DNA from: Bacteroides sp. ET71
GTDB taxonomy: Bacteria > Bacteroidota > Bacteroidia > Bacteroidales > Bacteroidaceae
DNA: 64,000 bases
Assembly: GCF_023336905.1 (NCBI RefSeq)
Contig: NZ_JAMBLS010000003.1
Span: 186,001 to 250,000, forward strand
Direction: 5' to 3'
A program made the position numbers and the translations under genes. Of this stretch, positions 34,365 to 45,218 are shown one piece after another. The stretch's first letter is position 1. Every line of letters begins with the position of its first letter. Below the pieces are notes generated by a model. The model saw nothing but the letters and a program-made list of their open reading frames with translations. It had not been told where the DNA came from and ran no database searches.

Positions 34365-37300
34365 TTAGAAATTGAAGTTAAGTCCCACGTTGAAAGTGCG
34401 CGAAATGGGGTAGCGCGACTGGTCGATGCCGTTGATGTCGACCTCGGGGTCAAAGCCCGAATAGCCGGTGATGGTGGCCACGTTCTCGCACGACACGGAC
34501 AGGCGGGCGTTTTCTATCATCAGCTTCTGCAACCAACGCTTGGGGAAGTTGTAAGACAACGTGATGTTCTTCAGGCGCAAGTACGAGCCGTTCTCGACGA
34601 AACGGTCGGACACGCGGCAGTTCTGGTTAGGGTCGCCGTAGACGGCACGGGGCATGGAGTTGCTCGTCCCCTCGCCACGCCAGCGGCCCAGCACGTCCGT
34701 CGTCTGGTTGTAGGCCGCCGCCATGCCGGTGATGTCGATGTTGTTGGCATTGTAGATTTTGTTGCCGGCCACGCCTTGCAGGTAGATGGACAGCTCGAAA
34801 CCTTTATACGTCAGCGTATTGTTCATGGAGAAAAGCCACGAAGGGTTCGGATTGCCGATGACCGTGCGGTCATCGTCGTTGATGACACCATCGTTGTTCA
34901 AATCCTTAAAGCGGATATCGCCCGCCTCGGCACCGGGCTGCACGGCATGCAGGCTCACCTCTTCGGGCGTCTGGAACAGGCCGTCGGTCACGTAGCCATA
35001 GAACACGTTGATAGGATAGCCCTTGTCCAGCATCGTCACGTATGAGTTGTTAATCTGGTTGATATAGTACGGCACGTCGCTGTTCAGGTCTTTAATCTTA
35101 TTCTTATTATACGTAGCCGTCACGGTTGTCTCCCACCCCACTTCACCTTTCAGGTTGACAGAGTGCAAGCTCATCTCCACACCCTTGTTGCTCACGCGGC
35201 CAGCGTTGGTATACGTCGTACTGGTGTCCTCGAAGCCGGAAGTAATGGGAATGGAGGCTTTCACCAACATGTCGCGCGTCTCCTTAATATAAGCGTCGAA
35301 CGAAAACATCAGACGCGAGTCGAACAACGAGGCATCGAAACCGATGTTCGTCTGGGCCACCTCTTCCCAATGCAGGTAAGGATTGGCCAGCGTCAGCGAC
35401 ACGAGCGCCGTCTGGTTATTGCCGGCCGTTCCCAGCGGATAAACACTGGTGTTGTACGTAGCCAGGTAGCCGTAATTGCTTACCCCGGCCTGGCTGCCGG
35501 TGACACCGTAGCCCACACGCAGCTTGAAGTCAGTCAGGTACTTGTTTCTTGGGAACCACTTTTCCTCGGACACCCTCCAGGCGGCCGACACCGAGGGGAA
35601 CGTGCCCCAGCGGTTCTTCTTGCCGAAACGGCTGGAACCGTCGCGACGCACAGTGGCAGTCAACAAGTAGCGGTCTTCGTACGAATAATTCAGACGTGCC
35701 ATGTACGACAACAGCGCCCACGCTGTCTCATTGCCGCCTATCGCGTACATTTTCTCACCGTTGTCCATCTCGTGCACGTTGTCGAACATAAAGACATTTT
35801 TCTGCGCGTTCAAGTAATCTGTCTCGTTCCATTGTGCGGACATACCGGCCATCAATCCCACATGGTGTTTCTCTGCAAAGGTATGGTCGAACAGGAAGTA
35901 GTTATCCCAGAGATACGTAAAAGACTTGTTGTCGCTCTTGTAGCGAGAGCTTTCCTCGGTCGGAGTGGGTGCCCAGTCATAGGCTGGCGTCCAGTTGTCG
36001 ATGAACCAGAACTTGGCGTCGTAGCCGAAAGTGCTTTTGAACTTCAGCCACTTGGTAAAGGTCAGTTCGGCGGTCAGGTTGGCCAGGAGGTTGTAGCCCT
36101 TGGTCTCGCTGCTGTTCACTTCGGTAGGGCCGATGGGGTTGCGCGTACTGCCATACCAGTCGGAGTTGCCCTCGGGACCGGCCCACGAACCGTCTTCATT
36201 CTTGACGGGCAACACGGGCAGAGCCTTCAAGGCATCGCCGATGCTGAAGGTGCCGGAATCTTTCACGTCGGCACTGAAAGTGATGTTGTTCGAAAACTTG
36301 AGCCACTTGAAGACTTGCGCGTCGCTATTGCTCTGGAAAGTAAAGCGGCGGTAGCCCACGCTCTTGACGATGCCTTCCTGGTCCAAGAAGCCACCGGAGA
36401 CGTAGTAGTGCGACGACTCGTTTCCACCGGAATAGCTGACGGTGTAGTTCTGCATGTGACCAGTCTGCAACAGCAGATCCAGCCAGTCCGTACCGGCTCC
36501 CAAGGTCGATGGATCAGCCCATTCAGGATTGGGATTGCGGCCGCTGTTGGTCATCATGTCGTTGTTCAGCTCGGCATACTGCGAGGCGTTGAGCAGTTCG
36601 GGCACGCTGGTGGCGTTCTGGAAAGAGTAATTGGCCGACACGGAGAGCCTGCCTTTGCCTTCGCTGCCGCGCTTGGTAGTAATCATCACCACGCCGTTGG
36701 CACCCCGCGAACCATAAATGGCAGTGGCCGACGCATCCTTGAGGACATCCAGCCGTTCCACGTCGGACATGTTCAACGAAGCCAGTCCGAGGTCGGTCGG
36801 CACGCCGTCTATCACGACCAACGGGTCGCAGTTGTTGATGGAACCCAGGCCACGAATCTTGATGGAGACGTTATCGCCGGGCCGTCCGGCATCGACCACC
36901 TGAACGCCCGAAATCTTACCCTGGATAGCTTGACCGAGGTTGGAGACGGGCGTATTCCGTAATTCCTTGTTGCCCAAAGAAGAGACGGCGCCGGTCAAGT
37001 CGCTTTTCTTCATCGTGCCGTAGCCCACGACCACAACTTCGTCCAGCATCTCGGTGTCCTCGCCCATGACTACTTGCAGGGTTGTCCGTCCGTCAACAGG
37101 CACTTCCAATGTCTTGTAACCCACGAACGAGAAGACTAAGGTGGCCTGCGGAAATACTTTCAGCGTGAAATCGCCGTCCAGACCGGAGATGACTCCGTTG
37201 GTAGTGCCTTTTTCTACTACGCTGGCGCCAATGACAGTCTCGCCCGCTTCATCCTTTATTATACCTTGCACTGTAATGTGTTGCTGCGCGAAAAGATGAG

Positions 37301-37367
37301 TTGCGCACAGAATCCCGGCCAACAATGCGAACAGCCGGAATCGGAATGGATTCTTGTCTTTTTGCAT
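34365..37367 (-). CDS. susC: SusC/RagA-type TonB-dependent glycan transporter
   Basis: 1000 residues. Signal peptide (about 1-28), carboxypeptidase-regulatory-like domain (about 30-110: VQGIIKDEAGETVIGASVVEKGTTNGVISGLDG), plug (about 115-235, with MLDEVVVVGYGTMKKSDLTGAV and YGSRGANGVVMITTK) and a long barrel ending FNVGLNFNF. It imports oligosaccharides of about the size GH66 releases into the periplasm using TonB energy. First gene of the operon; TATTTTTG -7 box at 37433-37440. Confidence 0.95.
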   Translation of the reverse strand: MQKDKNPFRFRLFALLAGILCATHLFAQQHITVQGIIKDEAGETVIGASVVEKGTTNGVISGLDGDFTLKVFPQATLVFSFVGYKTLEVPVDGRTTLQVVMGEDTEMLDEVVVVGYGTMKKSDLTGAVSSLGNKELRNTPVSNLGQAIQGKISGVQVVDAGRPGDNVSIKIRGLGSINNCDPLVVIDGVPTDLGLASLNMSDVERLDVLKDASATAIYGSRGANGVVMITTKRGSEGKGRLSVSANYSFQNATSVPELLNASQYAELNNDMMTNSGRNPNPEWADPSTLGAGTDWLDLLLQTGHMQNYTVSYSGGNESSHYYVSGGFLDQEGIVKSVGYRRFTFQSNSDAQVFKWLKFSNNITFSADVKDSGTFSIGDALKALPVLPVKNEDGSWAGPEGNSDWYGSTRNPIGPTEVNSSETKGYNLLANLTAELTFTKWLKFKSTFGYDAKFWFIDNWTPAYDWAPTPTEESSRYKSDNKSFTYLWDNYFLFDHTFAEKHHVGLMAGMSAQWNETDYLNAQKNVFMFDNVHEMDNGEKMYAIGGNETAWALLSYMARLNYSYEDRYLLTATVRRDGSSRFGKKNRWGTFPSVSAAWRVSEEKWFPRNKYLTDFKLRVGYGVTGSQAGVSNYGYLATYNTSVYPLGTAGNNQTALVSLTLANPYLHWEEVAQTNIGFDASLFDSRLMFSFDAYIKETRDMLVKASIPITSGFEDTSTTYTNAGRVSNKGVEMSLHSVNLKGEVGWETTVTATYNKNKIKDLNSDVPYYINQINNSYVTMLDKGYPINVFYGYVTDGLFQTPEEVSLHAVQPGAEAGDIRFKDLNNDGVINDDDRTVIGNPNPSWLFSMNNTLTYKGFELSIYLQGVAGNKIYNANNIDITGMAAAYNQTTDVLGRWRGEGTSNSMPRAVYGDPNQNCRVSDRFVENGSYLRLKNITLSYNFPKRWLQKLMIENARLSVSCENVATITGYSGFDPEVDINGIDQSRYPISRTFNVGLNFNF

Positions 37368-37571: not shown

Positions 37572-39227
37572 CTACATATTCAACCGCCCTATGCGGGCAA
37601 CGAGACCTTCCAGCTCCTCGCGGTTGCCGGCGGCCTTGTTCCGTACGCGGACACGGTAATTGTATATGGTAGTGACTGAATAGCGGAGGAAGCGGGCAAT
37701 CTTCACGCTGTCGGTGATGCCCAGACGGACGAGTGCATAAATGCGTAGTTCGGTATTCAGGCGCTCACCCGGCTTAGGCAAGATGTGTTCATCGGGAAGG
37801 AGAAGCGAGTTGAAGTCTTCCACAAAAGTGGGGAACAACTGCAGGAAGGTGTCGTCGAAGTGTGCGTAGAAGTCTTCCAGTTCTTGCTCGACCAGGCGCG
37901 AAGACTTCAGGTTCTTGTACAGTTCCTGCACTTTGCCTGCGGCGGCCAGCTTGCCCAGTTCGCGACGATAGGCATCGAGTTTCTCTATATAGGCAGAGCA
38001 CTGGTCCATGTACCTGCCGATGTATTCTTCCTTCAGGTAAGAGTTTTCGGCGATGCTCCGATTGGCCTCTTTCAGTTGTTCATTAGAGTGGTGCAGCTCG
38101 TCGTTCAGTTCCTTCAGCCGGGCGTTGGCTTCCATCACCTCGCGCCGGGCCTGTACGACGCGCTTCATCTGGCGGCGCACATAGACGACGGAGACGACGA
38201 GGAAGAGTGACAGCAGGGAGATGAGGGCCAATGCCCAAGCCATCTGTCTTTGCCGCTTTTTGATTTGTAGCTGGTACACGTCGTTGACGACGGGGAATAT
38301 CTTCAGAATCTCGAGTATGCGGAGACGGGCGTTGCAGGCCACTGCGTCTTCCATGCAGCGTTTCAGGTAGACGTAAGCGCGTTCCACGTCTCCCTCGTGA
38401 AAGAGCAGTACGGCCAGGGCAGGCAGGGCCGCGTATTCCAGCACGGGCGCCTGGAGGTCGGCAATGGCGGCCACAGCCAGGAAGTATTTCTCATGTTCCG
38501 TATCGCCTTTCAGATGGTAGGATTCGGCCAGGGTATAGGCAGCGATGGCGCGGTAGTGCGTGTTTCCACGGGTGAGGTAGCGTGTCATGAGGCCGATGGC
38601 CTCGTCAGGACGGTTGTTAGCGTTGCACTGCTGGCTGCGGTTCAGCGCGTAGGACAGGGTATCGCCATCGGCCAGGCGGTAGTGCAGCAGCGAGTCGTTG
38701 TACGTCTCGCGCAGGGCACGGTAGCGGTCGCGCAATTCCGGCAGGACAACGTAGTCGGCCATCCAACTGTACAAGGTCCGCAAGTTGTGGAAGTAATAGC
38801 CGCGCAAATGTTCGGGCAGGGAGTCGTAGGCAACGGCCTCCATCTGTTCCAAGGCTTCTTTATACATGCCTGCGATGCCCATCAGCTCGGCCAGGTTCAT
38901 GCGGGCGTTGTTCAGGTAGTCGCGGTTGCCGAGGTGTTCGGCCAGGCGAAGGCGCTCTTGCGTGACGGCCAGAGACGAATCGGCATTGTACGAGCGGTAT
39001 TCTTCCAGCAAGGCATCCAAGCGTTCGAAGCGTTCTTCGCCCGGCATGCCGGCATAAAAGCCCTGCTTCAGCTTGTGCAAGCGGTCTTCTTTTTGGTCTA
39101 TGTACCGGGCTCGTTCGCGGATAACGTCGTCGAGCCTCTCGAGCAGGGAATCCATCTTCAAGGTTCCGGCACTGAGAGCCGCAGCGCATAGCAGGAGGGA
39201 GCAAAGGCAGAACAGGGTTTTCTTCAT
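37572..39227 (-). CDS. Membrane TPR-HTH regulator of the glycan locus (DUF6377-type)
   Basis: 551 residues from ATG 39227. Signal/anchor (1-20), TPR-like periplasmic sensor (about 22-315), transmembrane helix (MAWALALISLLSLFLVVSVVYV), coiled coil (about 350-400) and a C-terminal domain with LuxR-like HTH (LGITDSVKIARFLRYSVTTI). It is a paralogue of the protein at 7834. Sitting directly upstream of susC in the same direction with its own promoter, it is the probable activator, sensing the oligosaccharide in the periplasm. The upstream in-frame ATG at 39257 falls in the promoter box (39254-39261) and is excluded. Confidence 0.88.
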   Translation of the reverse strand: MKKTLFCLCSLLLCAAALSAGTLKMDSLLERLDDVIRERARYIDQKEDRLHKLKQGFYAGMPGEERFERLDALLEEYRSYNADSSLAVTQERLRLAEHLGNRDYLNNARMNLAELMGIAGMYKEALEQMEAVAYDSLPEHLRGYYFHNLRTLYSWMADYVVLPELRDRYRALRETYNDSLLHYRLADGDTLSYALNRSQQCNANNRPDEAIGLMTRYLTRGNTHYRAIAAYTLAESYHLKGDTEHEKYFLAVAAIADLQAPVLEYAALPALAVLLFHEGDVERAYVYLKRCMEDAVACNARLRILEILKIFPVVNDVYQLQIKKRQRQMAWALALISLLSLFLVVSVVYVRRQMKRVVQARREVMEANARLKELNDELHHSNEQLKEANRSIAENSYLKEEYIGRYMDQCSAYIEKLDAYRRELGKLAAAGKVQELYKNLKSSRLVEQELEDFYAHFDDTFLQLFPTFVEDFNSLLLPDEHILPKPGERLNTELRIYALVRLGITDSVKIARFLRYSVTTIYNYRVRVRNKAAGNREELEGLVARIGRLNM

Positions 39228-39253
39228 GGCAACATGCAACTGTGTTTCTGCGG

Positions 39254-39261
39254 CCAAAGAT
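39254..39261 (-). promoter_or_regulatory. -7 box of the locus regulator
   Basis: TATCTTTG on the minus strand, 27 bases before ATG 39227, directly after the terminator of the GH3 gene. Confidence 0.6.
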
Positions 39262-41765: not shown

Positions 41766-44093
41766 TTACCTCCGCAGCAGCCACAATGTCTTGTTGGGGC
41801 GCAAGATATCGTTCACCTTTTCGGACGAGGCAGGGACGTCGGCCGTCAGAGTGGCCTTGATGTCGCGTGACGAGGTGGCAACCAGCAGGGAATACGTCCC
41901 CCCGTCTACGAGCCACGACGACGATGCCTCGTCGAACGAAGCCAGGTCGGCCGTACGGACGGTCATGGCTATGTTTTGCGTCTCGCCCGGCTGCAACAGG
42001 CCGGTTTTGGCGAAGGCTTTCAGTTCTTTGTCGGGTTTGTTGCGGGCAGCGGCATCGGGGGCAGAAACGTAGAGTTGGACCACTTCCTTGGCGGGCACGG
42101 TGCCGGTGTTGGTCACGTCGACCCGCACGGTATAAGCGCCTGCGGAAGCTTCGACAACGGGATTGGCAAAGTCGAAGGTGGTGTAGCTCAAGCCATAACC
42201 GAAGGGATAGGACACAGGCATGCCGAAGCTGTCGAAGTAGCGGTAGCCCACATAGATGTCTTCTTCATAGTCCACGTAATCTACGTTTCGGACGGCGGCT
42301 TTCTTCTCCTGCTTGTTCACCAGGTCTACTTGGGCGGTCTGGTTGACGGGGAAGTTGGCCGACGAGGATACGTCTTCGAAGCGCACGGGGAAGGTCATGG
42401 GCAGACGGCCGCTGGGCGACACTTTCCCGTCCAGCACGTCGGCCACGCTGTTGCCTCCTTCTTGCCCGGGCTGCCAGACACAGAGGATGGCGTCGGGCAG
42501 ATGCTTCCACGAGGCTGTCTCGATGACGCCGCCGATGTTGAGCACCACCACCACGCGCTTGCCCGCGGCGTGGAAGGCGGAGGTGACGTCTTCCAGCAGT
42601 TGTTTTTCGTCTTTACTCAGGTGGAAGTCGGACAGCCAGCGGTCGAGGAACTCGCCCGAGGTCCGCCCCAGGGTAATCAGTGCCAGGTCGTTCGCCGAGG
42701 CCAGGTCGCGGATGCGGTCGGCAGTCAGCGGCATTTCGACGGGACGCTCTTCGGGCATGAGGGGGGCGTGTTCCAGCTTGGAGATGCGCTCTTTCTCGAC
42801 AGCCAGGTGTGCCTCGTAAGCTCGCTTCAGACTCTCGTCGGGGGTATAGCCGGCTCCCTCCAGGCCGTCCAGCAAAGAGACGGTGTAGGCGCGGTTCACG
42901 TTGCCCGAGCCTGTCCCGCCGGCTATGAAGTCGTAGGACGTGCAGCCGAAGAGGGCGATGCGGCTGACGGCGGAGTCGAGCGGCAGCGTGTGTTCGCGGT
43001 TCTCCAGCAGCACCATGCCCTCGGCGGCCGACTGCCGGGTGACGGCGGCATGTGCCTTCAGGTCGGGCTTGTTGCTGAATGGATAGCCCTTGAAGCGGGG
43101 TGTGCGGAGAATCATCTCCAGGATGCGGCGCACGTTCGCATCCAGCACCTTTTCGTCCAGCTTCCCCCCTTTCACGGCTGCCAACAGGGCCTCGTATTGC
43201 TTGTCCAGGCCGGGCTGAATCATGTCGTTTCCGGCTTTCATCTGTGCCACCGCATCCTTACCGCCGAACCAGTCCGTAACGACCATGCCTTCGAAGCCCC
43301 ATTCGTCGCGCAACAGTGTCGTGAGCAGCTCGGGGTTCTCGGACGTGTACAATCCGTTCAGGTAATTGTAGGAAGACATCACTGTCCAGGGACGCCCCTC
43401 TTTGACGGCAATCTCGAATCCCCGCAGGTAAATCTCACGCAGGGCACGCTGCGAGACGTGCGCGTCTACGGTGCCACGGTTGGTCTCCTGGTTGTTCACG
43501 GCGAAATGTTTGATGCTGGTGCCCACGCCGTTCTTCTGCACGCCGCGCACGTAGGCGGCAGCCGTCCGGCCGCTGAGCACGGGGTCTTCGGAGAAGTACT
43601 CGAAGTTGCGCCCGCACAGCGGGTTGCGCTGTATGTTCATGCCCGGCGCCAGGAGGACGTCTGCCCCGTATTCCAACAGTTCCTGGCCGATGGCCTGCCC
43701 CACGTTCTCCACCAAGTCCTGGTTCCAGGTCGATGCCAGCAGGGTGGCGATGGGGAAGTGCGTGCAATAGTAGGTGGCGGTGTCGTCCGGGCGTGTCGAG
43801 TCAATGCGCAGGCCGGCAGGGCCGTCGGCAAAGACCACGGCGGGGATGCCCAGACGTTTGATGGGATAGGAAGTGCCGGCGGCTCCGGGCAGCGACTTGT
43901 CCGTGCGGCCGATGACGGGTTGCTCGCCCGAGGCTTCGGCCATGCCGGTGCCGATGACCAGATGGACTTTTTCTTCCAGACTCATGGCATCCACCACGTC
44001 TTCCACCGGAGCCTGGCCCAGTTGCGGTGTGCCGGGGCCGCAGGCGCATAAGGCTGTAGCCGCGAAGGCTGCCCAACAGATTTGTTTTTTCAT
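41766..44093 (-). CDS. GH3 glycosidase, lipoprotein (second of two)
   Basis: 775 residues. Lipobox ending CAC|GPG with the lipidated Cys at 18. N-terminal TIM barrel with KHFAVNNQETNRG and nucleophile D274 (GMVVTDWFGG), alpha/beta sandwich with LGRTSGEFLDRWLSDFHLS, and a fibronectin-III-like C-terminal domain. It differs from its neighbour in domain spacing and belongs to the BglB-like branch of GH3 beta-glucosidases. First gene of a two-gene operon that ends at the 39281-39309 terminator. Exact substrate unknown. Confidence 0.9.
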   Translation of the reverse strand: MKKQICWAAFAATALCACGPGTPQLGQAPVEDVVDAMSLEEKVHLVIGTGMAEASGEQPVIGRTDKSLPGAAGTSYPIKRLGIPAVVFADGPAGLRIDSTRPDDTATYYCTHFPIATLLASTWNQDLVENVGQAIGQELLEYGADVLLAPGMNIQRNPLCGRNFEYFSEDPVLSGRTAAAYVRGVQKNGVGTSIKHFAVNNQETNRGTVDAHVSQRALREIYLRGFEIAVKEGRPWTVMSSYNYLNGLYTSENPELLTTLLRDEWGFEGMVVTDWFGGKDAVAQMKAGNDMIQPGLDKQYEALLAAVKGGKLDEKVLDANVRRILEMILRTPRFKGYPFSNKPDLKAHAAVTRQSAAEGMVLLENREHTLPLDSAVSRIALFGCTSYDFIAGGTGSGNVNRAYTVSLLDGLEGAGYTPDESLKRAYEAHLAVEKERISKLEHAPLMPEERPVEMPLTADRIRDLASANDLALITLGRTSGEFLDRWLSDFHLSKDEKQLLEDVTSAFHAAGKRVVVVLNIGGVIETASWKHLPDAILCVWQPGQEGGNSVADVLDGKVSPSGRLPMTFPVRFEDVSSSANFPVNQTAQVDLVNKQEKKAAVRNVDYVDYEEDIYVGYRYFDSFGMPVSYPFGYGLSYTTFDFANPVVEASAGAYTVRVDVTNTGTVPAKEVVQLYVSAPDAAARNKPDKELKAFAKTGLLQPGETQNIAMTVRTADLASFDEASSSWLVDGGTYSLLVATSSRDIKATLTADVPASSEKVNDILRPNKTLWLLRR

Positions 44094-44518
44094 TTTTCAG
44101 GTATTTATTACGTTACAAGATAAAGATTGAAACAAGGTTTCCCGGTCTGCCTTATCAGGAATGACTTTCTTCTCATCTTTCACGAAATTTCTTCACACGT
44201 AAGAAAATTTCCCATTGCTTCGTTTCCGGCCGTCCTTCCGTTTTAACCGTCAGGACGCGAAGTCTTCCGCATAAGACATTCTCCTGCAAAGTAAAGGATT
44301 TTTTGTCAAAAAAAAACATTATCGCGGATATTTTTTCAAACAATCTTCATTCTCCTGCCCCGCGGCCCGGCGACAGAAAAGGCCGGAACAGCCTCCGGGC
44401 AGACAGCCCCGCCCGTTGCCCGCGACAGCGGCGGCCAGCACGCGCACGAAGCGCGGCCCGTGTCCGCAACGGCGAAACGCCTCTCCCCAAGGTGCCGACA
44501 GGCGGCCGGAAAGGGGGC

Positions 44519-44622
44519 AAAAAGAAAAACCGTCTCTACCCTCACGGGCAAAGACGGTACACAAGTCAATAATACATGAAAAAACGCTATTTAGAGAGAG
44601 TTCTTTGTTGGATTCTCAAATC
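44519..44622 (-). ncRNA. Candidate small RNA, about 100 nt
   Basis: The unit has its own promoter (TTTG-N19-TACCTTTG, 44629-44659) and ends in an intrinsic terminator: ACCGTCT (44529-44535) pairs with AGACGGT (44552-44558), followed by U-rich sequence on the minus strand (44519-44528). The predicted 5' end folds into GGATT-UGAG-AAUCC. The middle is AU-rich and holds no open frame longer than three codons. It could be a free sRNA or an attenuated leader for the GH3 operon 430 bases downstream. It shows no match I recognise to 6S, SRP or tmRNA. Confidence 0.6.
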
Positions 44623-44628
44623 CGAGAC

Positions 44629-44659
44629 AAAGGTATGTAATAGTTTTCTTTTCTCCAAA
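44629..44659 (-). promoter_or_regulatory. Consensus promoter of the candidate small RNA
   Basis: On the minus strand TTTG (44656-44659) is separated by exactly 19 bases from TACCTTTG (44629-44636), a full match to the Bacteroidetes -33/-7 consensus and the best-spaced promoter I found in the window. Confidence 0.75.
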
Positions 44660-44849
44660 TAACTATCGACTATTTTCTGAATTTTATCGACGAATAAGAC
44701 AGAATAGGGCGCAAAAAGCGCCAGACAGTGCATCGGAAGCCGGGCAAACGCCCGCCAGCCCGCGACAACAGCGGGATGCGGCACACGCGAAACGACCGGC
44801 ACACGCATATTCACCCCGACAAAATGAGACGGCTTACGCAGATTTTTCG

Positions 44850-44857
44850 TACCTTTG
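44850..44857 (+). promoter_or_regulatory. -7 box of rbfA
   Basis: TACCTTTG, 26 bases before ATG 44883. Confidence 0.6.
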
Positions 44858-44882
44858 CCCAACCAACATAAAACAACGGCTT

Positions 44883-45218
44883 ATGGAAACAACCAGACAG
44901 AACAAAATAGCGCGCCTGCTGCAGAAAGAGCTGAGCGACATCTTCCAGCGGCAGACACAGGCCACCCACGGCGTGCTGGTGTCGGTCAGCGTCGTGCGCA
45001 TCAGCCCCGACCTGAGCGTGGCACGCGGCTACCTCAGCATCTTCCCGCCGGAACGCGCCGAAGAAATCTTGAAGAACATTAACGCCAACGCCAAGTCCGT
45101 GCGCTACGAGCTGGGCACACGTGTCCGCCACCAGTTGCGCATCATCCCAGAGCTGAAGTTCTTCATCGACGACTCGCTGGACTACGCAGAGCACATCGAC
45201 GAGCTGCTGAAGAAGTGA
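44883..45218 (+). CDS. rbfA: 30S ribosome-binding factor A
   Basis: 111 residues. RbfA binds the 30S subunit and helps mature 16S rRNA. The KH-like fold is recognised from RQNKIARLLQKELSDIFQRQ, VLVSVSVVRISPDLSVARGYLS and LRIIPELKFFIDDSLDYAEHIDELL. Its TGA overlaps the GTG start of the next gene (GTGA), indicating translational coupling. Confidence 0.96.
   Translation: METTRQNKIARLLQKELSDIFQRQTQATHGVLVSVSVVRISPDLSVARGYLSIFPPERAEEILKNINANAKSVRYELGTRVRHQLRIIPELKFFIDDSLDYAEHIDELLKK

Follow-up and report, generated by a model that had tools for sequence, protein, structure and literature searches.

The closest described counterpart of the RNA reported here is CpxQ. It is described as being released from the cpxP mRNA by RNase E, with Hfq, and as the noncoding branch of the Cpx response, and its region as better conserved than other parts of cpxP (PMC9438474, PMC4817254). 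Like CpxQ as described there, the family presented below has an RNA at the mRNA 3′ end of a small exported protein, shares its terminator with the mRNA and surpasses the coding sequence in conservation, and some of its loci lie downstream of a two-component system. The two differ in host protein family, phylum and sequence, no sequence relation between them is known, and in our family promoter and RNA persist where the coding sequence is missing. The review passages on CpxQ mention neither Bacteroides nor such a series of coding-sequence losses, and open PubMed Central yielded nothing on a loss of this kind with the RNA kept.

Pairing close to start codons is reported for three small RNAs (sRNAs) of B. 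thetaiotaomicron, GibS, FopS and BatR (PMC7366714, PMC11697453, PMC10861873). As described, FopS and GibS combine a single-stranded region with a terminator and act near start codons, as our RNA may also do (PMC11697453, PMC7366714), and the FopS structure is said to be deposited in Rfam (PMC11697453); our RNA differs in its single copy per genome, its own invariant core and the absence of an Rfam match. BatR (BTnc167), likewise a Bacteroides sRNA, is described in connection with cell-surface genes, with a seed that is freed by processing and binds translation starts (PMC10861873); its length of 154 nt and its other synteny set it apart, going by its description rather than by a comparison of sequences. 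MasB (BTnc201, RF04177) is, like ours, a stand-alone Bacteroides sRNA of around 100 nt, and its regulator is known (PMC10994844); our RNA gave no match to the RF04177 model.

Here we describe a locus in a 64 000 nt stretch of the Bacteroides sp. ET71 genome (the window), which on balance we take to encode a CpxQ-like and probably envelope-linked trans-acting sRNA that originated at an mRNA 3′ end and repeatedly became independent as the coding sequence was lost. The link to DUF4890, the 3′-end origin and the tandem site upstream all go beyond what an earlier note, made from the sequence alone, contained.

Anatomy of the locus

The earlier note had proposed a complete minus-strand transcription unit with promoter, 5′ hairpin, AU-rich middle and terminator, and all of these parts were located between 44659 and 44519, within the 789 nt that separate a GH3 gene from rbfA and with no coding sequence before the RNA. 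They are listed here together with a tandem site farther upstream and the two neighbouring genes:

44665..44691, minus strand: tandem site GTCGATAAAATTCAGAAAATAGTCGAT, GTMGAY repeats with a 21 nt period, presumed activator site
44656..44659, minus strand: −33 element TTTG, from the motif scan of the window
44628..44635, minus strand: −7 box TACCTTTG, TAnnTTTG being recurrent upstream in relatives
44519..44623, minus strand: predicted sRNA gene of about 105 nt, called from promoter, fold, terminator and homologues, with a 5′ end near 44623 predicted from the −7 box
44610..44623, minus strand: 5′ hairpin GGATTTGAGAATCC, GGATT-TGAG-AATCC, with hairpins of differing sequence here in relatives
44565..44600, minus strand: invariant core CTCTCTCTAAATAGCGTTTTTTCATGTATTATTGAC, from the alignment of 52 loci, presumed target-pairing region
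44529..44558, minus strand: intrinsic terminator hairpin of 13 pairs with a GTGA loop, supported by covariation
44519..44528, minus strand: T-rich tail of the terminator, from the terminator scan
41766..44093, minus strand: GH3 gene (PF00933/PF01915), downstream on the same strand, judged to lie outside the unit
44883..45218, plus strand: rbfA (PF02033), divergent neighbour

The unit thus has a promoter of its own (TTTG-N20-TACCTTTG), with both elements that the note had named but a spacer of 20 rather than 19 nt. On both strands of the window TTTG-N(19 to 21)-TAnnTTTG occurs only once, at this RNA, against 29 TAnnTTTG boxes, and the note's description of it as the best promoter match in the window was therefore fair. 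The 104 nt RNA has a predicted folding energy of −27.7 kcal/mol (z −2.95), with an AU-rich stretch between 5′ hairpin and terminator. Since a generic terminator scan by itself stays at chance level (3 found, 2.6 expected), it is the comparison across genomes that lifts the unit above chance. Farther along the minus strand, a DUF6377 protein (PF19904) is encoded at 37572-39257, between a second GH3 gene and a large TonB-dependent-receptor-like gene (34365-37367).

Conservation and spread

The 33 nt core CTCTCTAAATAGCGTTTTTTCATGTATTATTGA was found in 56 of the 158 genomes of the genus (55 exact, one with a single mismatch), once in each carrier, as opposed to the multicopy habit of FopS. It was absent from all 279 sampled genomes of other genera in the family, and the five carriers among 301 genomes drawn from the family all belong to the same genus. 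Among named genome contigs, 51 stretches carry it, including those of B. clarus, B. fluxus, B. oleiciplenus, B. cellulosilyticus and B. gallinarum, and none was found in viral contigs. A core with two inserted bases (L013, genome G025) is not counted in the 56, and one of the 14 matches in a first DNA search of 61 genomes (L014) is a 29-base terminator-like stretch only.

After near-identical copies had been collapsed, 54 distinct loci remained, from which 52 distinct core-plus-terminator sequences were aligned. The 36 core columns of this alignment contain a single changed letter (L041), in contrast to the third codon positions of rbfA at 31 of these loci, where identity averages 55 % with a minimum of 35 %. 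An intrinsic terminator is well supported: all 13 pairs have changed on both sides across the alignment, 93.8 % of the cells are paired, and the covariation score of 0.617 compares with 0.280 after shuffling, is reached by none of 500 shuffles and stands against at most 0.206 in slid controls. As to the parts that the earlier note had stressed, the AU-rich middle and the terminator structure are conserved; the 5′ hairpin is present in 31 of the 43 folded autonomous RNAs, with unrelated sequences among loci.

Rfam, the covariance search asked for at the outset, gave no hit that reached a gathering score anywhere in the window; at E≤5 the sole match in 44100-44890 was an unrelated lncRNA model (E 2.9). 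A wider search with our own covariance model, R1, gave hits in 31 of 251 genomes at E≤0.01, of which only G276, G208, G000 and G114 were full members (90-103 bits), the others scoring at most 39.3 bits (16 of them inspected). In three genomes of genus g46, a look-alike lies 3-4 nt past the stop of a sigma-factor-like gene (L236, L239 and L244, near 1500). It consists of TTTTAATAGGTTTTTTCATATATTA with a hairpin after it, scores 31 to 39 bits with R1 and is candidate kin only. In open PubMed Central we found nothing on a Bacteroides sRNA in the rbfA intergenic region, on DUF4890 or on BTnc049, and fragments of the cores of both classes led to a single paper, an unrelated one. Judged from sequence conservation, the covarying terminator, the conserved promoter and a dedicated-looking upstream site, the loci almost certainly form a family of conserved sRNA genes, in support of the regulatory RNA of around 100 nt that the note had suggested.

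A second class was found by its sequence below related DUF4890 genes of other Bacteroides, which are followed by CAGCGTTTGTTTTTCATAATTTTTTAGTGAATG and a terminator, and its core resembles that of class 1, i.e. the family described so far, in part only; both points weigh against our reading. Class 2 occurs in ten of the 158 genomes within three mismatches, plus three looser cases (G363, G364 and G030), and the 13 genomes do not overlap with the 56 that carry class 1. Both classes have AGCGTTT..TTTCAT and a purine-rich GTGA-type terminator loop, and R1 scores class 2 at 15.4-29.0 bits, compared with 99.5 for the window. A DUF4890 frame lies just upstream in ten of the 13 loci, broken in G001 and apparently shifted near its end in G383; it does not adjoin in G358, G361 and G459, and two of these three have no upstream half-site (see below), which counts against our reading.

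Linkage to DUF4890 and the upstream promoter

Among the 54 loci the RNA mostly stands alone. A DUF4890 gene, or what remains of one, stops 9-39 nt ahead of the core at L011 (remnant), L013, L016, L018, L021, L034, L042, L054 and L082. At these loci the RNA forms the 3′ end of the mRNA with a common terminator, an arrangement that the window locus does not have, and the 3′ end is more conserved than the coding sequence: the DUF4890 proteins are 43-64 % identical to the first of six, as opposed to one letter of variation in the core of 52 loci, which is equally invariant with and without the adjoining gene. All four proteins tested exceed the PF16231 (DUF4890) cut-off, and three of the four show similarity to LTXXQ, the CpxP/Spy family, at E 0.0015-0.033, in every case below the Pfam cut-off. 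DUF4890 paralogues are many, with PF16231 at E≤0.001 in 94 of the 158 genomes. A profile of the linked subfamily matches in 51 of the 158 at E≤1e-12, and such a match adjoins the class 1 core in seven of the 56 carriers, intact in G360, G208, G409, G457, G114 and G418 and in two frames in G382. The genome of the window itself has a more distant DUF4890 gene (C3:133615-134133, E 1.2e-38), far off and with no core behind it.

Loss of the coding sequence can be followed within the B. cellulosilyticus group, where DUF4890 is intact in B. cellulosilyticus (L021), B. timonensis (L054) and L113, frameshifted in B. oleiciplenus (L034), shortened by a large internal deletion in B. stercorirosoris (L082), reduced to a trace of its start and end in a metagenome-assembled genome (L088) and gone in L030 (G376), whose −7 box is TACATTTA. 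Promoter and RNA are retained in every one of these states. Pairwise alignments covered promoter and core for L034/L088, and the promoter part only for L150/L030 and L151/L174, the cores of which were compared by reading. Elsewhere, a C-terminal DUF4890 remnant alone precedes the RNA in G036 (L011), and G208 has DUF4890 plus the RNA between rbfA and a YfhO-like gene (identified by eye), the same slot in which B. clarus and others have the RNA alone. For the loci of this rbfA slot, only synteny and promoter suggest a loss of the coding sequence rather than a capture of the RNA, no remnants being seen there, which counts against our reading. Overall, the RNA very probably derives from the DUF4890 3′ end or has a common origin with it.

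A TAnnTTTG box lies within 130 nt upstream in 44 of the 54 loci, at about 100 nt in L012 and L083, and the eight DUF4890-linked loci within the 54 have no such box in these 130 nt. At 20 of the 54 loci GTMGAY-N15-GTMGAY occurs upstream, looked for ahead of DUF4890 where that gene is linked, with a period of exactly 21 in every case; Markov shuffles gave a mean of 0.02 and a maximum of 1 (n=200). Half-sites 34-35 and/or 55-56 nt before the −7 box are present in 33 of 46 autonomous class 1 loci, in all seven class 1 DUF4890 promoters (L011 left out) and in all 11 class 2 promoters tested, i.e. 11 of 13 class 2 loci, all of these being raw counts for this geometry. This fixed distance fits an activator bound just upstream of the promoter. 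Against our reading, 13 of the 46 autonomous loci have no matching half-site, and in class 2 neither a half-site nor a −7 box was found within the kilobase upstream of L175 and L183.

The strict tandem site occurs once in the genome of the window, at this RNA, and across 464 kb of that genome only this exact site has the right geometry. In 14 genomes it was found at 22 places, not far above the 15 of a reversed control; single hits therefore mean little, and only recurrences before homologous genes were used. As for the regulator, a histidine kinase and an OmpR-type response regulator are encoded directly upstream of DUF4890 and the RNA in L113, and a similar response-regulator start is seen in L054 and L088; such a pair adjoins in few loci only, which counts against our reading. 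The tandem GTMGAY pair is a putative regulator site, at which a response regulator may activate transcription.

The same tandem site also stands before the sRNA BTnc049 (RF04179) in G276 (L213:1581-1687, plus strand), G458 (L229:1341-1447, minus strand) and G418 (L231:1581-1692, plus strand). BTnc049 differs from our RNA in sequence and structure, and the RF04179 model matches these three loci and not the window RNA; in L213 its −7 box is, by hand count, around 11 nt farther from the tandem site. Another four loci (L223, L215, L226 and L228, in G365, G021, G385 and G017) have the site before a DUF4270 lipoprotein-like gene near 1500, again 34 nt before a TTCTTTTG box by hand count, with Pfam run on one of the four.

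Targets, alternative readings and meaning

The core is complementary to starts of the AUGAAAAAACGC type; its reverse complement contains AAUACAUGAAAAAACGC (..AAUAC-AUG-AAA-AAA-CGC..), a translation start of the signal-peptide sort. Hybridisation gave a mixed and on the whole weak result. Across 350 called genes, the preference of the core for start regions, relative to coding windows, exceeds that of all 60 shuffled cores (energy difference 0.20 compared with −0.64, sd 0.38); its mean start-region energy is equalled or beaten by nine of the 60 shuffles, and its best 5 % of start-region energies are weaker than the shuffled average. Predicted accessibility is moderate, with a mean unpaired probability of 0.56 and values of 0.16-0.53 for the U-run and CAUG. 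Within two mismatches, AATACATGAAAAAACGC has only one other place in the genome of the window, which begins no ATG gene; in eight genomes there are 18 places besides the sRNA itself, as opposed to seven for the reversed control, and five of the 18 lie at the starts of frames of at least 200 aa. No conserved near-perfect trans target was found in these genomes. Whether the RNA acts in trans by pairing at translation starts is, on this sequence evidence, an evenly balanced question.

The best single target would form 17 contiguous pairs (−22.5 kcal/mol) with the start of a GH9-looking gene, so identified by eye, in B. gallinarum (G018, L200 near 1500); it was rejected as a general target, with relatives at E≤1e-60 in only five of 20 genomes. 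Autoregulation of DUF4890 by pairing at its own start was likewise rejected, the resemblance of DUF4890 starts to the reverse complement of the core being partial only.

Several other readings deserve consideration. The earlier note had also proposed an attenuated leader of the GH3 operon, and the GH3 gene does begin 425 nt beyond the RNA on the same strand. This is hardly credible, because a complete terminator lies in between, just five of the 54 distinct loci have a GH3-like gene next on that strand (judged from protein starts, Pfam being applied only to the GH3 proteins of the window), and the RNA persists beside many other, often convergent genes; we rejected the leader on synteny. The glycan setting appears incidental; rbfA was found in the available flank at 31 of the 54 loci. 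Nor is it likely, save by a narrow margin of doubt, that the element acts in cis, only ending and stabilizing the DUF4890 mRNA: several genomes do have it as the 3′ end of this mRNA, but DUF4890 (E≤1e-12) adjoins the core in just seven of the 56 class 1 genomes, the core is as invariant where the gene is missing, and terminators need no invariant 36 nt leader. A short coding or antisense element can be dismissed almost entirely, for although the reverse-strand frame ATGAAAAAACGCTATTTAGAG and the sense-strand frame ATGTATTATTGA both begin with ATG, identity ignores codon position, the frames differ among loci beyond the core, class 2 changes frame and the covariation sits in a terminator.

Membership of the described FopS/GibS family is quite improbable. 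The outline is the same, an unpaired stretch and then a terminator, with start-codon pairing reported for FopS/GibS, and one FopS is described as derived from a 3′ UTR (PMC11697453); on the other side stand at most one copy per genome, compared with 14 FopS in B. thetaiotaomicron, and the lack of an Rfam match to the window RNA, in a copy of Rfam that may not include the FopS model. A protein-binding RNA, whose core would be the site of an RNA-binding protein (e.g. an Rbp-type RRM protein) or a sponge rather than a seed for mRNAs, is unlikely. In its favour, the 36 nt identity exceeds the usual seed length, no conserved target of high complementarity appeared and RbpB is reported to bind sRNAs in B. 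thetaiotaomicron (PMC11697453). The single-stranded anti-start region beside a terminator nevertheless resembles what is described for GibS, FopS and BatR (PMC7366714, PMC11697453, PMC10861873).

We return to a stand-alone trans-acting sRNA that would descend from the 3′ end of the mRNA for DUF4890, an exported protein Spy/CpxP-like in outline. The promoter would be turned on by a regulator that occupies the two GTMGAY half-sites, spaced by 21 nt, probably in an envelope-related response. In DUF4890-linked relatives the RNA is the 3′ tail of the mRNA, from which processing would release it, and at the window locus, which has no coding sequence, the promoter would drive the RNA directly. Bacteroides and their phylum are not known to have Hfq. 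The invariant 36 nt core would then pair with target mRNAs around their start codons and, since its reverse complement corresponds to a start of the signal-peptide-gene type, would block the translation of a set of exported proteins. An envelope-stress role is slightly less likely than not. The sequences show directly the anatomy of the gene, the conserved core, the covarying terminator, the fixed promoter geometry, the linkage to DUF4890 and the loss of its coding sequence beside a retained RNA; transcription, activation by a response regulator, the envelope role and pairing at start codons are inferred. More tentatively still, Bacteroidota may have separately evolved a counterpart of CpxP-CpxQ, in which an envelope regulator acting through GTMGAY sites controls DUF4890 together with an sRNA from the same mRNA that silences exported proteins via AUGAAAAAA-type starts; selection would have acted on the RNA rather than the protein, so that the coding arm was discarded several times and its promoter is now an sRNA promoter.

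Arguments about the origin of stand-alone sRNA genes usually start from end points. In this family the steps themselves seem to be visible among related species: the RNA as an mRNA tail, then following a frameshifted gene, then a deleted one, and finally by itself at the old promoter. For gut Bacteroides, in which few sRNAs have known roles, this provides a candidate that is widespread and whose promoter site and core are defined, and possibly the noncoding arm of an envelope response in their phylum.
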